42,297 nt of DNA. Source: Candidatus Kryptoniota bacterium (GTDB taxonomy: Bacteria > Bacteroidota > Ignavibacteria > Kryptoniales > JAKASW01). Positions 1 to 42,297 of this stretch are shown one piece after another. Under the pieces are notes generated by a model. The model saw only the letters and a program-made list of their open reading frames with translations. It was not told the DNA's origin and did no database searches. The stretch is from assembly GCA_024641705.1 (NCBI GenBank), contig JAHECO010000032.1, positions 1 through 42,297 on the forward strand, given 5' to 3'. The position numbers were made by a program, and so were the translations under genes. Positions within the stretch are counted from its first letter, which is position 1; each line of letters begins with the position of its first letter.

Positions 1-518
1 ATCCTTGAGATTGCGCCGCCGATACCGGGAATGACCATGGGCATATTCACGCCGACCTTCGTTGCGAAGTACGAGAGCGTGGTCCACGGCAGGAGGTATC
101 CCGTGAACGCGAAGGCAAGGACCAATCCAAGCAGGAGAACACCGAGGATCCACATTATTTCGCGCGGTTTCCGGTAAGCCTTCATGAAGAAGGTCGAGAA
201 CATATGCACAAGGACAACCGCGATAAGGAAATTGGCTCCCCAGAAATGCATAGACCTTATCAGCCACCCGTAATGGACTTTCTCCATTATGTAACGAACA
301 GACTCGTTTGCAGCGGCGGGGCTGGGCGAGTAATAGAACGCAAGCAGTATGCCGGTTATGAACTGGATCGTTATGATGAAGAGCGCGAGGCCGCCGAAAT
401 AATACCAGAAGGAGTGCTTGTGCTGGGGGACGCTCTTGTGTTTCACCCATCGCCGAATCCCGGTGAGGTCGACGCGCTCCTCTACGAAGGCGAGCAGGCT
501 GCGTGTCAATGCCTTCAA
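1..518 (-). CDS. Cytochrome b of a bc-type complex, N-terminal part (cut by window edge)
   Basis: Transmembrane cytochrome b subunit of a quinol:cytochrome c (bc/b6f-like) oxidoreductase; it carries two b hemes and the quinol sites. Translating the complement gives about 172 residues, with heme-ligand histidines in SMHFWGANF and VLVHMF and the typical TGYLLPW turn after the third hydrophobic segment. The C-terminal part lies outside the window to the left. The gene follows the Rieske gene directly. The likely start is TTG at 518, which shares TTGA with the Rieske TGA stop, so the pair is probably translationally coupled. A second in-frame TTG lies three codons further on. The family is certain; the exact start is less so. 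Confidence 0.9.
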   Translation of the reverse strand, partial: MKALTRSLLAFVEERVDLTGIRRWVKHKSVPQHKHSFWYYFGGLALFIITIQFITGILLAFYYSPSPAAANESVRYIMEKVHYGWLIRSMHFWGANFLIAVVLVHMFSTFFMKAYRKPREIMWILGVLLLGLVLAFAFTGYLLPWTTLSYFATKVGVNMPMVIPGIGGAISR

Positions 519-35977: not shown

Positions 35978-37393
35978 TTACTGGACTACTTTCGCCTCAC
36001 CCTTTTTCGCAGCGGCGAGATAAACTCCCATGATGTAGTTGGCCACATTCTTGACCTCCTGAGGCTTTAGACCCTGATTCGGCATGGGTGGGTAGCCGGG
36101 CACCGCAGAGTACGGGTTGTTGATGAAGTCCTCAAGCGAATCCATCTTCCCGACAAAATGGGGCAGCGTCTGGAAGTATGGAGGGCCGACAAGCTTCCGA
36201 TCGAACCTGTGACAGGCACTGCAACGGGCATTGTAGATGTCTTCCCCGCTCATCACGGGCTGTGCCTTGTTCGGGTTCAATGAAGCCAGCATCGCTTCGT
36301 ATGCCACCCCAAGGTGCTGATCCTGAACACGCGTCGCATAGTTGAACGCAATCTCGTCTTTCATCGCCCACACGAAAACCAGGAGGATCACGCCCACAAA
36401 GGCAAAAGTGCCGAAGTTGGCGCGTGAATCTCTCAACATCGAGTAGAACACGATGAGTATCATCAGGGCGATGAACAATCCGATTCCTGCGATGCCGAAT
36501 GTCGCATTCGACACGCCAGTGAGCGGCAGGTTCTGAATTTCGAAGAATAGAAGAATCGGCTCGAGTGCCACGGCAACAATGCCGACCGGGAGAACGTACC
36601 CTTTGACGAATTTGCGGTACGAGTCTTCGGTTTTGACTGCTATTCCTCCCTCAAACTTGAAGAAGAAGAACAGCACCGCTGCGCTGGTGATAACGAGAGC
36701 TGCGACGACATAGTTAAGGAGACTCCAGAAAGTCGATCCGGAAAAGAGAACCGTGAGAAACGACGAGTCGGCCCATCTGCCGGAGCTGAAGGAGAGCCTC
36801 ACCGTTCCGACATAGACCCACGTAGCAAGCCAGAGGATGATTGCGCCGCGCCTGCCCGCAGTCCGCTTGGTGGAGGCGGCGCTTCTCTCGAAAGACTCGA
36901 TATCCGCTGCAACATCGCTGTTCACATCTGCCGACCTCGCAGTCGCCAGACGCCGGAAGGTGCTGTATATCGAATCGAAGTGGAACGACCTTTTGTAATA
37001 GTATACCGAGAACAACCCGGCGAAGTAAAGGAGTGCGGCGATTGTCAGGTAAGTTGTGATTCCCAGGCCCATTCCTTTGAGGAGCTGCGCGTAGATCAGA
37101 ACCGCAGTGACCAGAGGAAGAAAGGCAAGCGCGGCAATCACTCCCTTGCCGGGCGCGGCAAGGTCAGCAAGGTCCCTGGCGAACCTGAGAAAATGTGCCG
37201 CTCGCCCCGTGTCGCCTTCCTTCCGCGTCCCTTCTCTCTTCCCCAGCACGTTCAACACGGCCGAGAACGTCGACGCTATGAGCGCTATGCTAGAGTAAGT
37301 CACGAACATTATCGTGACGACCACGAGGAGATACTTCAGGAGCGCCAGATGTTCAGTCGATTCCGGAATTGCCAGTCTGCTGAGAAAATTCAT
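35978..37393 (-). CDS. Eight-helix membrane protein with C-terminal cytochrome c
   Basis: 471 residues. About eight hydrophobic helices (roughly 21-45, 84-104, 112-132, 183-203, 211-245, 265-285, 298-318 and 328-345) precede a periplasmic cytochrome c domain. The heme site is CSACH at 391-395, with GPP at 403-405, and the likely Met ligand is M437 in YPPMPNQGL. The membrane part is not a family I recognise. As the last gene of the oxidase operon it probably feeds electrons to CuA or links the oxidase to cytochrome bc; that is inference. It is much larger than ordinary membrane-anchored cytochromes c. A 182-bp gap separates it from cyoE. Confidence 0.72.
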   Translation of the reverse strand: MNFLSRLAIPESTEHLALLKYLLVVVTIMFVTYSSIALIASTFSAVLNVLGKREGTRKEGDTGRAAHFLRFARDLADLAAPGKGVIAALAFLPLVTAVLIYAQLLKGMGLGITTYLTIAALLYFAGLFSVYYYKRSFHFDSIYSTFRRLATARSADVNSDVAADIESFERSAASTKRTAGRRGAIILWLATWVYVGTVRLSFSSGRWADSSFLTVLFSGSTFWSLLNYVVAALVITSAAVLFFFFKFEGGIAVKTEDSYRKFVKGYVLPVGIVAVALEPILLFFEIQNLPLTGVSNATFGIAGIGLFIALMILIVFYSMLRDSRANFGTFAFVGVILLVFVWAMKDEIAFNYATRVQDQHLGVAYEAMLASLNPNKAQPVMSGEDIYNARCSACHRFDRKLVGPPYFQTLPHFVGKMDSLEDFINNPYSAVPGYPPMPNQGLKPQEVKNVANYIMGVYLAAAKKGEAKVVQ

Positions 37394-37575: not shown

Positions 37576-38517
37576 TCAAAAGACCCTCCAGGGCAAGCTC
37601 AGGACTTTGTCTACCATGACGGCCAGTGTGACCGCCAGGACGTAGATATTGATCTTCATGAACGCCGATTTGTTGGTGCGCTTGTCCGCTCTGCCTGGGA
37701 TGATTTTGTACGTCCCGACTGCAAGCCAGACTCCCAGGGCGGCGATCGCGATCTGAGTCGGCAAGTTGTTTACGATTCCTGTGGTGATGAAGAATACGGA
37801 GCTGAGAACCAGTACAATCATCCAGATGAAAGTCAGCACAGCAAGGGTTGTCTCGCCGAAGTACATCCTAAGCGTGGGAAAATTTGCGCGCTCATAATCG
37901 GCGCTGTACATGTCCATGAGAAGCCAGAAGTGAGGGATCTGCCATATAAAGAAGAAAGCGGTGACAGCAATCAGCCGCGGATCTAGGACATATCCACCTG
38001 CCGCCGCCCAACCCGCCATAACCGGGAGCGAGCCGACGAAAGAGCCTGGAATTACCGCAAATGCGGTGACCCTCTTCAGCGGTGTGTATATCCCGTTGTA
38101 CCACACGAAAGCCATCAGCGAGAGCACGAGTGCGAGCAATCCGCCCGTCAAGTAAACCGTTATGCCACCGGTAATTATCAGTCCCAGAACAAGCGCCATA
38201 GCGGCGCTGGGGGCAATGGCCCCGGAAGGGAGCGGACGTTTCATCGTCCGGTGCATCAAAGAGTCTGTCTCCCATTCCTGGTAATGGTTGAGGACAGCCG
38301 ATCCGCATGACAGAAGAAATATTCCTGCCACCGGAAGGAGCATGTCGGCTGAGATGTCCCTGGCGGCGAGTATGTACCCGAATGCCGCGGACATTCCGAC
38401 GAAAAAGGTGATCCTTATCTTGACCAGCTCGAGAAGGCTGTTCAGCAGTTCGCCGTGACGCGATCCGGCAACCGCCGTCGCGACGCCGTCGACCGGCTTC
38501 ACGTCAAACCGGTGCAT
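37576..38517 (-). CDS. cyoE: Heme O synthase (protoheme IX farnesyltransferase)
   Basis: About 313 residues from ATG 38517, typical length; about nine helices. It adds farnesyl to heme b for the oxidase. The polyprenyl-diphosphate motif reads NHYQEWETDSLMHRTMKRPLP (20 or so residues), with E where most homologues have the first Asp of the N...D...D pattern. Second-half motif YIPLKRVTAF-type sequence is present. The start is uncertain: GTGs at 38535 and 38562 are alternatives, the latter just after the coxB stop. Longer upstream readings run into coxB in another frame and are not credible. Confidence 0.88.
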   Translation of the reverse strand: MHRFDVKPVDGVATAVAGSRHGELLNSLLELVKIRITFFVGMSAAFGYILAARDISADMLLPVAGIFLLSCGSAVLNHYQEWETDSLMHRTMKRPLPSGAIAPSAAMALVLGLIITGGITVYLTGGLLALVLSLMAFVWYNGIYTPLKRVTAFAVIPGSFVGSLPVMAGWAAAGGYVLDPRLIAVTAFFFIWQIPHFWLLMDMYSADYERANFPTLRMYFGETTLAVLTFIWMIVLVLSSVFFITTGIVNNLPTQIAIAALGVWLAVGTYKIIPGRADKRTNKSAFMKINIYVLAVTLAVMVDKVLSLPWRVF

Positions 38518-38564
38518 TGGATCGATCGCGGTCACACGTTCTCTCGTATCCAACTTGCGCACTC

Positions 38565-39230
38565 TCAGAGACCCGCCCTTTCGGTTTTCACCTGCGAGGA
38601 ATCCGGCAGTGCGAGAGTATCTTTCACGCCGCTGTTCACCCAGGCGAGGAACTTGTCCGGAGGTTCGACTATCACTCTTGTGTACATGAGCGCGTGGTGC
38701 AGGCCGCAGTACTTGCTGCATGTCAGCTCGAAATTACCGAGGTTCTCCGGGTAGAGGACGAGGTAAGTCACCCTGTCGGGGAGCACATCCTGCTTCTCGC
38801 GGAAATCGGGAAGAAAGAATCCGTGTATCACGTCGAGCGAAGTCATCAGAAACTTTATAGGCTGCCCCTGCGGAAGATATAGCGTGTCCGCCTGCTTGCC
38901 GTTCTCGTACTGGAACTGCCAGTTCCATTGTCTCGCGGTCACCTTGACGGTCATAGCATTTTTCGGGACGATGCGGGTCTGAATATACCCTTTCCATCCT
39001 ATGTAAAACATATACAGCACAAGGAGCACCGGGATGACGGTCCAGATTATCTCGAGAGGCACATTGCCGTGAATACTTACCGCTTTGGGGTGCCGTTTCT
39101 TGTTATACTTGAATACAAAAAGGAGCATCGCACCGATTACTAAAGCGAAGAGGATGAGATCCGTACCGACAATGAATCTCATTACATCGTCAACGGCCTT
39201 TGCTTCGTTTTGTGGACCTGGCAACAACAT
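38565..39230 (-). CDS. coxB: Cytochrome c oxidase subunit II
   Basis: 221 residues. Two N-terminal helices (about 19-40 and 60-80) and a cupredoxin domain with the binuclear CuA site. Ligands are H136 (DVIHGF), C171, C175, H179 and M182. The position of the usual CuA Glu is K173 (CSKYCG), an uncommon change; that residue binds through its backbone, so CuA may still form. WQFQYENG is the aromatic electron-entry patch. It has no fused cytochrome c, unlike caa3 subunit II. AGGTGAGGT precedes the ATG, and it follows subunit IV by 9 bp. Confidence 0.93.
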   Translation of the reverse strand: MLLPGPQNEAKAVDDVMRFIVGTDLILFALVIGAMLLFVFKYNKKRHPKAVSIHGNVPLEIIWTVIPVLLVLYMFYIGWKGYIQTRIVPKNAMTVKVTARQWNWQFQYENGKQADTLYLPQGQPIKFLMTSLDVIHGFFLPDFREKQDVLPDRVTYLVLYPENLGNFELTCSKYCGLHHALMYTRVIVEPPDKFLAWVNSGVKDTLALPDSSQVKTERAGL

Positions 39231-39239
39231 TTTTTTACC

Positions 39240-39575
39240 TCACCTTCTGAAATACACGTCTGCGAACGTCAGGGTAAAGATCACTATGAGCGTGAATCCC
39301 GCTATGCTGAGAAAGATTTTGAAAATGAAATCCTCGAATTTTATATGCATGAAAATGTTCACAACCAGCGAGGCTTTCGTCAAAGCTATCACGAGCGCGA
39401 CCACGACGGTGAAGGCGGCCAGATTCACTCCGGAGACAACCGCCGTGAGTGCCGTCAGTGCTATCAACGCGAGCCACACAAGTATGTAAGTTCCGTAACC
39501 GATAGGCTCCGCATGTTTGCTTTCCGCCGCGTGGTCGTGGGAGTAAGTCTGCACGTTTGTCTCTTGTGATTCCAT
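39240..39575 (-). CDS. Cytochrome c oxidase subunit IV (small prokaryotic type)
   Basis: 111 residues, with three hydrophobic helices after a His-rich, charged N-terminus (HDHAAESKHAEP). The core with NIFMHIKFED resembles the prokaryotic COX4 family that stabilises subunits I and III. It lies between coxC (10 bp upstream) and coxB (9 bp downstream). Confidence 0.85.
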   Translation of the reverse strand: MESQETNVQTYSHDHAAESKHAEPIGYGTYILVWLALIALTALTAVVSGVNLAAFTVVVALVIALTKASLVVNIFMHIKFEDFIFKIFLSIAGFTLIVIFTLTFADVYFRR

Positions 39576-39585
39576 CTCGCGAACC

Positions 39586-40233
39586 TCAGTTTATCAGATA
39601 GAATAGTGGGAAAAGGAAAATCCATATGATGTCGATCAGGTGCCAGTATAACCCGGCTGTTTCGAGCTTGATGTAGTCGTTCTGGTTGATGGTCCCGGTC
39701 AGGATAAACACAAGCATGAAGGTGAGGATGATCATCCCGACGATCACGTGGACCGCATGGAGCCCGGTCATCGTGTAGTAAAGTCCCCAGAACAGGATCT
39801 CTCCGTCGCTCATGTTGAGAAGCGCGGGGGAACCGGGATAAAGCCCTTCCCTGATCTCGGAAGTCCATTCGAAATATTTGATCCCGAGGAAGATCAAGCC
39901 GAGAAGGATCGTGCCCGCAAGAAACGTTACAGCCAGCCACTTCTTCCCTCTCTGCATCGCGCCTATCGACAACACCATCGTGAGGCTGCTGGTCAGCAGA
40001 ACCATCGTGTTTATCGTTCCGAAGAGCGTATGCGTCTCCAGCCCGGCGTTGTGGAACTGTACCGGATGGAAGTATCGATACGTCGCGTAAACCAGGAACA
40101 ATCCGGCGAAGAGAAGCAGCTCCGTGAACAGAAAGAGCCACATCCCCAGCTTCGCACCCTGAACATCCCTGTGCTTGTGCACGTCGTGACCGTGACTTAA
40201 AGTTTCAGACTTCGACCCTACAATCTCACTCAC
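39586..40233 (-). CDS. coxC: Cytochrome c oxidase subunit III
   Basis: 215 residues, about five helices. Core motifs are GMWLFLFTELLLFAGLF, YYTMTGLHAVHVIVG with paired His, and the C-terminal GLYWHLIDIIWIFLFPLFYL. It begins at GTG 40233, preceded by GGAGA seven bases upstream. The N-terminus is short and His-rich, and there are five rather than seven helices, as in caa3-type oxidases. It follows coxA after a 114-bp gap containing an 8-bp tandem repeat. Confidence 0.93.
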   Translation of the reverse strand: MSEIVGSKSETLSHGHDVHKHRDVQGAKLGMWLFLFTELLLFAGLFLVYATYRYFHPVQFHNAGLETHTLFGTINTMVLLTSSLTMVLSIGAMQRGKKWLAVTFLAGTILLGLIFLGIKYFEWTSEIREGLYPGSPALLNMSDGEILFWGLYYTMTGLHAVHVIVGMIILTFMLVFILTGTINQNDYIKLETAGLYWHLIDIIWIFLFPLFYLIN

Positions 40234-40347: not shown

Positions 40348-41991
40348 CTACTTCACCTCGATTGCTTCAGGATGATAGTACGGCTCATGTACAATGACCG
40401 GTATCTCTTCAAAATTCTCAGGCGGCGGCGGCGGCGACGCGATTGTCCACTCAAGTGTAGTCCCTCCCCATGGATTGCTGCCTACGACCTTTCCCTTGAA
40501 AATCCCGTGCAGGAGATTCGCGAACATTATTATCAGACCGATCACAAGCACCCACGATCCGACCATCGAAATGTGCTGCCAGGTCTCGAACTTCGGCAGA
40601 TAGGCGAAGTACCTTCTCGGCATTCCTTCCGCGCCCATAACAAGCATGGGGAAATAAAGCATGTTGAAACCGACGAACATGATGGCTAGCGCCCAGTTCG
40701 CCGCCTTAATGCTGTACATTCTCCCGAACATCTTCGGCAGCCAGTAGTGCAGCGCACCGAAGAAGATGAAGACTCCGCCGCCGAAGATTATGTAGTGGAA
40801 GTGCCCTACTACGAAGTACGTCGCGTGGAGCTGCGCATCCGTGGCGACGGATCCCAGGAGCAGGCCCGTCAGACCGCCTATGCAGAATAGGAAAATGAAC
40901 GCCATGACGAAAAGGAACGGCGGCTTCAAGTCGATGGAGCCTTTGTACATTGTCGCGACCCAGTTAAACACTTTTATACCGCTCGGGACTGCAACCAGGA
41001 ATGTAAGGAAGGAAAAAACGAATTGTGCGGTGGTACTCATTCCCGCGACAAACATATGATGTCCCCAGACGAGATATCCGATGAAAGCAATCGCAAGGCT
41101 TGATATCGCGATGGCTTTGTATCCGAACACGGTCCTTCGCGAAAAAGTCGTGATTATTTCGGAGACCACTCCCATCGGCGGAAGTATCATGATATAGACT
41201 GCCGGGTGCGAATAAATCCAGAAGAGGTGCTGATATAGAACCGGATCACCACCTTTGGCGGGGTCGAAAATTCCGACGCTGAAAATTCTCTCGACCATGA
41301 TGAGGAGGAGAGTGATCGCAAGAACCGGCGTCGCGATGACCTGCACCCAGGCAGTCGCGTAGAGAGCCCACACGAAAAGGGGCATCTTAAACCAGCCCAT
41401 GCCGGGTGCCCTCAGCCTGTGGATCGTCGTGATGAAGTTCAGACCGGTGAGGATCGAAGAAAACCCTAGAATGAACACGCCGAAGACCGCCATCGTTACA
41501 TCGGTTCCGGTGCGGATGCTGTAAGGGATATAGAATGTCCAGCCCGTGTCCGGCAGACCGTTATGGAAGAGTGAAACTATAATTATGATCGAGCCTGTAA
41601 CGTAGAGGTACCAAGAGAGGAGGTTGAGCCTCGGAAAGGCGACATCCTTAGCCCCGATCTGGATCGGCAGAAAGAAATTGCCGAGCGTGGCCGGGATGCC
41701 CGGAATGACAAAGAGGAATATCATTATCACGCCGTGCAGTGTGAAGAGCGCATTGTATTCCTGAGCGGTAAACAGTTTCCCGGCCGGGCCGGGAACGAGC
41801 ATCTCGAGCCTCATCAGGACACCGAGAATAACCCCTACGGTGAAGAACGTAAAAAGCGAGACCATGTACAGGATTCCGATCCGCTTATGATCCGTGGATA
41901 GGATCCAGGCGAGAATGCCTTTCCTCTTTCCGTGGTTCTTCAGATAACTGTTCGCGAATGCCTCGTTGGGCGGGATCGCAACATCAGCCAT
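40348..41991 (-). CDS. coxA: Cytochrome c oxidase subunit I (A2-type)
   Basis: 547 residues from ATG 41991, about 12 helices. It holds low-spin heme, heme a3 and CuB. Key sites are TLHGVIM (low-spin heme His), YSHPAVY (CuB His cross-linked to Tyr), GHHMF (CuB His pair), GIKVFNW (K-channel Lys) and GHFHY (heme His pair). The YSHP form, without the Glu of HPEVY, is the mark of A2-type oxidases such as those of Rhodothermus. GGGAG six bases upstream supports the chosen start; an ATG at 42018 would overlap the SCO gene more. It overlaps the SCO gene by 8 nt. Confidence 0.95.
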   Translation of the reverse strand: MADVAIPPNEAFANSYLKNHGKRKGILAWILSTDHKRIGILYMVSLFTFFTVGVILGVLMRLEMLVPGPAGKLFTAQEYNALFTLHGVIMIFLFVIPGIPATLGNFFLPIQIGAKDVAFPRLNLLSWYLYVTGSIIIIVSLFHNGLPDTGWTFYIPYSIRTGTDVTMAVFGVFILGFSSILTGLNFITTIHRLRAPGMGWFKMPLFVWALYATAWVQVIATPVLAITLLLIMVERIFSVGIFDPAKGGDPVLYQHLFWIYSHPAVYIMILPPMGVVSEIITTFSRRTVFGYKAIAISSLAIAFIGYLVWGHHMFVAGMSTTAQFVFSFLTFLVAVPSGIKVFNWVATMYKGSIDLKPPFLFVMAFIFLFCIGGLTGLLLGSVATDAQLHATYFVVGHFHYIIFGGGVFIFFGALHYWLPKMFGRMYSIKAANWALAIMFVGFNMLYFPMLVMGAEGMPRRYFAYLPKFETWQHISMVGSWVLVIGLIIMFANLLHGIFKGKVVGSNPWGGTTLEWTIASPPPPPENFEEIPVIVHEPYYHPEAIEVK

Positions 41992-42297
41992 GTACTTCTC
42001 TCCCTTGCTTCTGTCCAATTTTCTTTGTCGATCTCAGGAACACGAGAAATCCTGCCAGGAACACGACGGTGCCGATTCCGACGATGCGTATGATGTTGAA
42101 GACGAGAGGCCCGCCTTCCGGCGTCTTACTGAAGCACACACACAGTATCGAGCTTATTATTTGCTCCGGTGTGCCCGACTTCGCCTCCATTATCGCCATC
42201 TTGAGGTCCACCGGCGAGAACGTGGTTCCCTGGATATACCTGATGATCTTCCCGTTCTTGTCGACTACGATCAATGCAGTGGGATGCGTGAACTTGA
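41984..42297 (-). CDS. SCO1/SenC-family copper chaperone, C-terminal part (cut by window edge)
   Basis: About 104 residues visible: KFTHPTALIVVDKNGKII, with the conserved copper-ligand His of the SCO fold (H in THPT), followed by a linker with CVCF, a transmembrane helix (about 60-80) and a basic tail. The N-terminal part with the CxxxC site lies beyond the right edge. SCO proteins deliver copper to CuA of subunit II. The C-terminal membrane anchor after the thioredoxin-like domain is the reverse of the common N-terminal anchor. The stop overlaps coxA by 8 nt. Confidence 0.82.
   Translation of the reverse strand, partial: KFTHPTALIVVDKNGKIIRYIQGTTFSPVDLKMAIMEAKSGTPEQIISSILCVCFSKTPEGGPLVFNIIRIVGIGTVVFLAGFLVFLRSTKKIGQKQGREVHG

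Follow-up and report, generated by a model that had tools for sequence, protein, structure and literature searches.

The window, by which we mean the whole stretch of DNA analysed, is one entire contig of 42,297 bases. An oxidase operon is located on its minus strand in the order Sco (cut), Cox1, Cox3, Cox4, Cox2, CtaB and, as the last gene, a frame for which we have coined the name MemC. The genes, and the features of MemC, are as follows.

41984..42274, minus strand: Sco, C-terminal part, cut by the contig end (resembles the frame that precedes Cox1 in relatives)
40348..42018, minus strand: Cox1 (Pfam COX1, 5.4e-148)
39586..40233, minus strand: Cox3 (Pfam COX3)
39240..39575, minus strand: Cox4, prokaryotic subunit IV (Pfam COX4_pro)
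38565..39230, minus strand: Cox2, CuA subunit of 221 amino acids with no CxxCH (Pfam COX2; heme motif count)
37576..38721, minus strand: CtaB, a UbiA-type farnesyltransferase (Pfam UbiA, 2.6e-39); the start is probably internal, as the frame overlaps Cox2
35978..37393, minus strand: MemC, a single open reading frame of 471 amino acids (operon place in relatives; homologues)
36299..37366, minus strand: MemC membrane domain of eight predicted helices, residues 10–365, with a CydA-like predicted fold and no conserved heme ligands (AlphaFold2, structure alignment, hhalign, ligand columns)
36020..36256, minus strand: MemC c551-type cytochrome c domain, residues 380–458 (Pfam; PDB c551 matches; Z 8.2 to 6kq1_A)
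36209..36223, minus strand: MemC CSACH heme c attachment motif, residues 391–395 (C391, C394 and H395 in 40/40)
36083..36085, minus strand: MemC Met437, predicted second axial heme ligand (40/40 aligned members)

The Sco fragment of the window has no Pfam match. On contig C19 of the same genome (9,724 bases), the genes ActA, B, C, D, F and E are followed, at the contig end, by the N-terminal part of a Sco. Since Sco is split between C19 and the window, a single ACIII–oxidase operon is most likely, with the order ActABCDFE-Sco-Cox1-3-4-2-CtaB-MemC spread over the two contigs and presumably joined within Sco. The preliminary description had named the oxidase as caa3 and its partner as cytochrome bc. 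Cox2 of the window contains no CxxCH motif, and the operon is therefore aa3-like, not caa3. In this genome, the quinol-oxidising complex whose genes run into the same Sco is ACIII and not cytochrome bc, and the donor is likely to be ACIII, although in four genomes of the same genus (L030:7010-9600, L031:6052-8678, L032:5941-8531 and L033:9071-11661) Rieske and cytochrome b–cytochrome c genes lie divergently beside MemC (4/4). In the stretches read at these four loci, no ActA–D or ActF gene was seen beside the oxidase, only an ActE-like frame. Two further observations concern the genome itself. Its ActD (L147:2561-3775, on C19) has an added C-terminal cytochrome c (Pfam ActD 3.2e-61, Cytochrome_CBB3 2.5e-9), an arrangement also in print, in the text available, for Mros0042. 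A cytochrome b-like fragment (38% over about 141 residues) is located at the start of the window (15-440, minus strand).

The place of MemC in the operon is largely maintained in relatives. MemC adjoins CtaB or Cox2 in 18/18 relative loci; two of these (L023 and L029) are truncated where their contigs end, and CtaB follows MemC in L039. Twenty further loci were hand-chosen for diversity from the profile matches and are not a random sample; MemC stands beside Cox2 or CtaB in 16 of them and elsewhere in four. In the 16, CtaB comes before MemC in 12 and after it in three, and none was seen in one.

Domains and topology of MemC

Pfam recognises only the cytochrome c domain of MemC, at residues 380–455 (Cytochrome_CBB3 2.8e-7; Cytochrom_C 9.1e-7), and the NCBIfam matches are likewise to cytochromes only, all below threshold. 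The AlphaFold2 model (mean pLDDT 83.4, from an input of 19 aligned homologues) predicts membrane helices at about residues 13–57, 83–104, 112–136, 180–202, 219–245, 257–288, 296–321 and 328–353, two of these eight being manual cuts of the longer model helices 112–152 and 159–202. In a hydropathy plot alone, the helices are not cleanly separated. The mean number of lysine plus arginine residues over 40 sequences is 6.5, 6.8, 3.5 and 2.0 in loops 1, 3, 5 and 7, and 0.4–0.6 in loops 2, 4 and 6. This bias would put both termini outside, with the cytochrome in the periplasm. The first description, of an eight-helix cytochrome c encoded in the oxidase operon, is thus confirmed by the 471-residue frame, the model, the CSACH motif and the last place in the operon.

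The cytochrome domain has the CxxCH motif, the distal methionine and the predicted fold of a class I c551-type cytochrome, a type typical of electron carriers. Its nearest solved structures by PDB sequence match are of the c551/c552 types, and the predicted model superimposes on 6kq1_A with Z 8.2 and rmsd 2.3 over 77 aligned residues. Conservation is much higher in this domain than in the membrane part, which varies fast (three invariant residues in 39 sequences).

A probable orthologue of MemC is already in print. Frames 33–45 of genome G152 encode MemC, CtaB, Cox2, Cox4, Cox3, Cox1, Sco and ActE, F, D, C, B and A, and the same gene order is given for Mros0033–0045 in the accessible part of PMC3534657. 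CxxCH motifs are present in G152 in ActE (1), ActD (1) and ActA (4); that source reports CxxCH at the matching Mros0040, 0042 and 0045. From the shared gene order and CxxCH placement, we infer that MROS_0033 of Melioribacter roseus is probably the orthologue of MemC, G152 being taken as M. roseus. In the text available, MROS_0033 is labelled a class I soluble c551/c552 cytochrome (PMC3534657), and it is listed as a redox partner of the oxidase, with a scheme legend that gives c551/552 as soluble (PMC5492636). The latter source also identified MROS_0033, CoxI and CoxII in aerobically grown cells only, and reports that this oxidase resembles the one of Desulfovibrio. A soluble periplasmic shuttle between ACIII and the oxidase would agree with these labels and with the c551-like character of the cytochrome domain itself. 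However, a membrane domain precedes the cytochrome in one and the same frame, with eight helices in the model and a matching loop charge pattern; the G152 gene at the MemC place encodes 446 amino acids with a start similar to MemC, and all 40 aligned members extend to an N-terminal methionine. We consider a soluble shuttle very unlikely, although a later cleavage may release the cytochrome. The published role as redox partner thus fits MemC as modelled here; the word soluble does not. A literature search, with subscription papers and supplements largely outside its reach, returned no description of the MemC membrane domain.

Relationship of the membrane domain to cytochrome bd

The membrane part had been described as of unknown family, and Pfam, NCBIfam and a member-by-member Pfam search indeed gave nothing usable for it. 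The MemC profile nevertheless weakly matched a two-gene bd-like cluster, the members of which we call fus and part. The first gene, fus, encodes a CydA-like protein that ends in a cytochrome c domain; it matches Pfam Cyt_bd_oxida_I with 2.6e-14 in L069 and 4.6e-9 in L104; the fus of the divergent locus L071 has no such match. The second gene, part, has no Cyt_bd_oxida_I match (in L104, no Pfam match at all), and its model has nine helices (pLDDT 78.0). Between fus and part there is clear homology (hhalign 96.9%). The L104 cluster (L104:4427-7005) is located on contig C37 of the same genome as the window and is also found in relatives; such a cluster is possibly a cytochrome-c-linked bd-like enzyme.

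The membrane domain of MemC is homologous to this family. A membrane-only profile of 39 of the 40 members (L032, nearly identical to others, was omitted) aligns with part at 98.8% (E 6e-17, 282 columns) and with fus at 96.0% (E 4.7e-9) in hhalign, and fus aligns with the CydA profile at 96.4%. Compared directly, part reaches only 29.3% with CydA, and MemC 0.9% and 3.2%; with CydB, fus reaches 18.9% and part 5.3%. Controls against the MemC membrane domain (CydB, ActC, ActF, TDT, Perm1, Cox1, Cox3 and CtaB) all gave 1.0% or less, some of these families being small (six ActC and three TDT sequences; NarK, with two, was left out), and the reversed and ten column-shuffled alignments gave 1.1% or less. 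Against PDB sequences, neither the membrane-only MemC profile nor the part profile found a bd chain; the full-length MemC profile met 5doq_A with E 0.18, which we do not count as evidence.

The predicted folds point in the same direction. Residues 10–362 of the MemC model align with 5doq_A, subunit I of a bd oxidase, with Z 24.1 and rmsd 3.4 over 306 residues. The ten best structure entries are all bd oxidases (Z 21.8–24.1), with ACIII chains at 17.5–18.0 and PsrC at 14.6. The part model gives Z 24.7–27.6 against bd entries and at most 17.6 against ACIII. In Foldseek, the best 12 rows for MemC are bd oxidase chains, mostly lettered B, with none below E 0.001; the finer structure comparison places chain A of 5doq (subunit I) at the top. 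On this profile chain and the predicted fold, we place the membrane domain with the cytochrome bd/CydA superfamily, by way of bd-like intermediates, and we count the failure of the direct sequence profiles to find CydA against the certainty of that kinship. Two other identities were rejected. An NrfD-type ACIII subunit gave hhalign values of 0.2% (ActC, six sequences) and 0.3% (ActF, 19 sequences) and a fold Z of only 17.5–18.0. PuuD, which we take to combine a membrane domain and a cytochrome c in the same architecture, was considered and dropped; MemC has no Pfam match to a urate oxidase family.

The origin of the cytochrome domain is less clear from profiles. The MemC cytochrome profile scores best with the bd-like fusions (median 17.0 bits), followed by ActE (12.2), Cox2 (12.0), CytB (10.8) and ActD (6.5); these scores are too weak to decide on Cox2, ActE or ActD as its source.

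A match to a known, unrelated family with a solved role was to refute the first reading, and it does so in part: the family is known, but the residues that a bd role needs are absent. In the CydA proteins of the class, H20, H189, M329, E100 and E108 are present in 28/28 sequences, taken from 30 fetched loci and chosen by their GRQP motif, so that the conservation of GRQP itself in this set is by selection. The histidines and the methionine we take to be the helix-I histidine ligand and the His/Met ligands of b558. H24, E105 and E112 of fus and H33 of part are each kept in 18/18 sequences. H33 of part aligns with F30 of MemC, in a column that is F in 27, L in 10 and I, M and Y in one each of 40 sequences and never histidine. 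Among the 40 MemC sequences, no column is conserved in the way of the CydA heme ligands H189 and M329, and the best-kept membrane histidine is H15, in 26/40. Judged from these columns, the membrane domain of MemC is very probably heme-free. The CydA fold of the model would also suit a bd-type quinol oxidase, or a quinol:cytochrome c reductase, that still has its own b hemes; with no conserved membrane histidine and no ligand-like column, we regard such an enzyme as extremely unlikely.

Distribution and gene neighbourhoods

MemC is widely conserved in its class. At E ≤ 0.001, the MemC profile has matches in 162/245 class members, and at E ≤ 1e-30 in 127/245 (counted manually), the latter number showing that the frame is not due to chance. 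The remaining 35 genomes have weak matches, and those with a listed position cover the first helices (G013 and G014, columns 17–129) or the cytochrome end (G077 and G234). In a scan of the phylum, 58/395 genomes match at 1e-30, all 58 within the same class; a contig scan tuned to close relatives yielded two MemC loci.

Both MemC and Cox1 were searched in 41 genomes. MemC is present in 19/19 genomes with a Cox1 at least 62% identical to that of the window and was found in 0/19 whose best Cox1 is 37–57% identical. Among the rest, G001 shows no Cox1 at 1e-50 and only a piece of MemC where a contig starts; G026 and G027 have neither. In these 41 genomes, MemC goes with one Cox1 subfamily. Together with the helices and the operon linkage, this co-occurrence bears out the earlier view that MemC is a cytochrome c with an unusual number of helices and a tie to the oxidase.

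The tie to one Cox1 subfamily would be expected of a fixed structural subunit through which ACIII docks on the oxidase, with the cytochrome as part of the wire, and ACIII–oxidase supercomplexes are known from Flavobacterium johnsoniae and Rhodothermus marinus (PMC8552683 and PMC8361435, in the parts available). Against this, three genomes (G126, G052 and G179) retain the oxidase in a cox operon whose last gene is CtaB, with the MemC homologue located elsewhere (Cox2 CxxCH 0/3), which argues against an obligate fixed subunit, and the membrane domain varies fast. Such a docking subunit is possible, if doubtful; it overlaps with the membrane-held carrier that we favour and is compatible with it.

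In these three genomes, the MemC homologue is located either directly behind nosZ, nosL, nosD and an ABC pair (L124) or with a nitrate reductase beta gene about 6 kb away (L129 and L126; the gene was recognised by Pfam in L129 and by eye in L126). Genome G123 has two copies, one in the cox operon (L130) and a second (L123) with an nrfA-type gene at a distance of about 3 kb. Of the four copies located outside cox operons, just one adjoins nos genes. In the tree, these copies nest with the cox-operon MemC of the same families. NosZ was found in 6/8 genomes checked but not in the genome of the window; the NosZ of L124 ends in what we take, by eye, to be a CuA-like motif. As a separate observation, a DoxX-like gene is close to the MemC homologue in each of L123, L124, L126 and L129 (by Pfam in L124, by eye in the others). 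The copies near nos, nar and nrf genes argue for a carrier that can serve more than the oxidase, not for an oxidase-only structural part.

These copies also bear on the reading of MemC as a redox-active assembly factor that would assist copper or heme insertion and not donate electrons. The neighbouring Sco and CtaB are assembly genes, and the much stronger conservation of the cytochrome domain, compared with the membrane part, would suit such a factor. Homologues near nos, nar or nrf genes, the class I c551 type of the cytochrome and an inverse tendency with respect to Cox2-fused heme c speak against it, and we judge an assembly role to be unlikely.

The inverse tendency is seen in the Cox2 sequences. 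Cox2 has its own CxxCH in 4/35 MemC operons with a complete Cox2, as compared with 5/5 ACIII–oxidase operons of MemC-less genomes, counts that follow phylogeny and are not independent; the five MemC-less ACIII operons read are of caa3 type. The contrast fits MemC replacing the Cox2-fused cytochrome. The four operons that keep both MemC and a heme-bearing Cox2 show that MemC is not a simple replacement, and the Cox2 of a more distant MemC-less operon (L155), which has no CxxCH, shows that Cox2 can be heme-less where MemC is absent. In the MemC-less ACIII operons L149–L153, with caa3-type Cox2, a frame of 128–200 amino acids without CxxCH replaces ActE between ActF and Sco.

Proposed electron route and comparison with known systems

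We propose that MemC is probably a membrane-integral electron carrier, in which a heme-free anchor of CydA fold holds a c551-type cytochrome c at the periplasmic side. ACIII, or a bc-type complex in one subgroup, would reduce the cytochrome, which would in turn reduce CuA of the A-type oxidase encoded next to it and so take the part of the Cox2-fused cytochrome c of caa3 oxidases. The electron-entry role suggested at the outset is the best reading; the direction of flow, the CuA acceptor, the ACIII donor and the choice between a fixed subunit and a membrane-held shuttle are inferred. According to the accessible part of PMC8552683, F. johnsoniae can do without ActE, and other monoheme cytochromes may replace ActE in Pelobacter carbinolicus. 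With one homologue located behind nos genes, MemC may also supply electrons to N2O reductase, likewise a CuA enzyme. A bd-oxidase subunit stripped of its hemes and rebuilt as a general membrane-held hub for the CuA enzymes of this class of bacteria, so that O2 and N2O respiration share one carrier, is a more speculative idea that we regard as rather unlikely.

If correct, the proposed route would amend the topology of a carrier drawn as soluble in the published scheme of Melioribacter respiration and would explain how ACIII supplies electrons to an A-type oxidase without a Cox2-fused heme c. It would also mean that a bd-oxidase scaffold has been reused, heme-free, inside a heme-copper oxidase operon. 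MemC would then be a concrete candidate for the component that connects ACIII with the oxidase and that, in some lineages, supplies N2O reductase with electrons.

The predicted fold of the membrane domain is that of CydA, but MemC differs in having no conserved heme ligands, no GRQPW region and an added cytochrome c, and no CydB gene was seen in the MemC operon. By profile, the two-gene bd-like family (for example, L069:3419-5856 and L104:4427-7005) is closest to MemC, and its fus likewise has a C-terminal cytochrome c; unlike MemC, this family keeps a conserved histidine, and in the two loci read fully there are no cox genes beside it. In caa3 oxidases, as proposed for MemC, a cytochrome c covalently held at the membrane is located beside CuA, but MemC is a separate multi-helix protein and not a Cox2 fusion. 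Cytochrome c_y and similar proteins are anchored donors to an oxidase with a single-helix anchor. MemC would work alike, its anchor consisting of eight predicted CydA-like helices.
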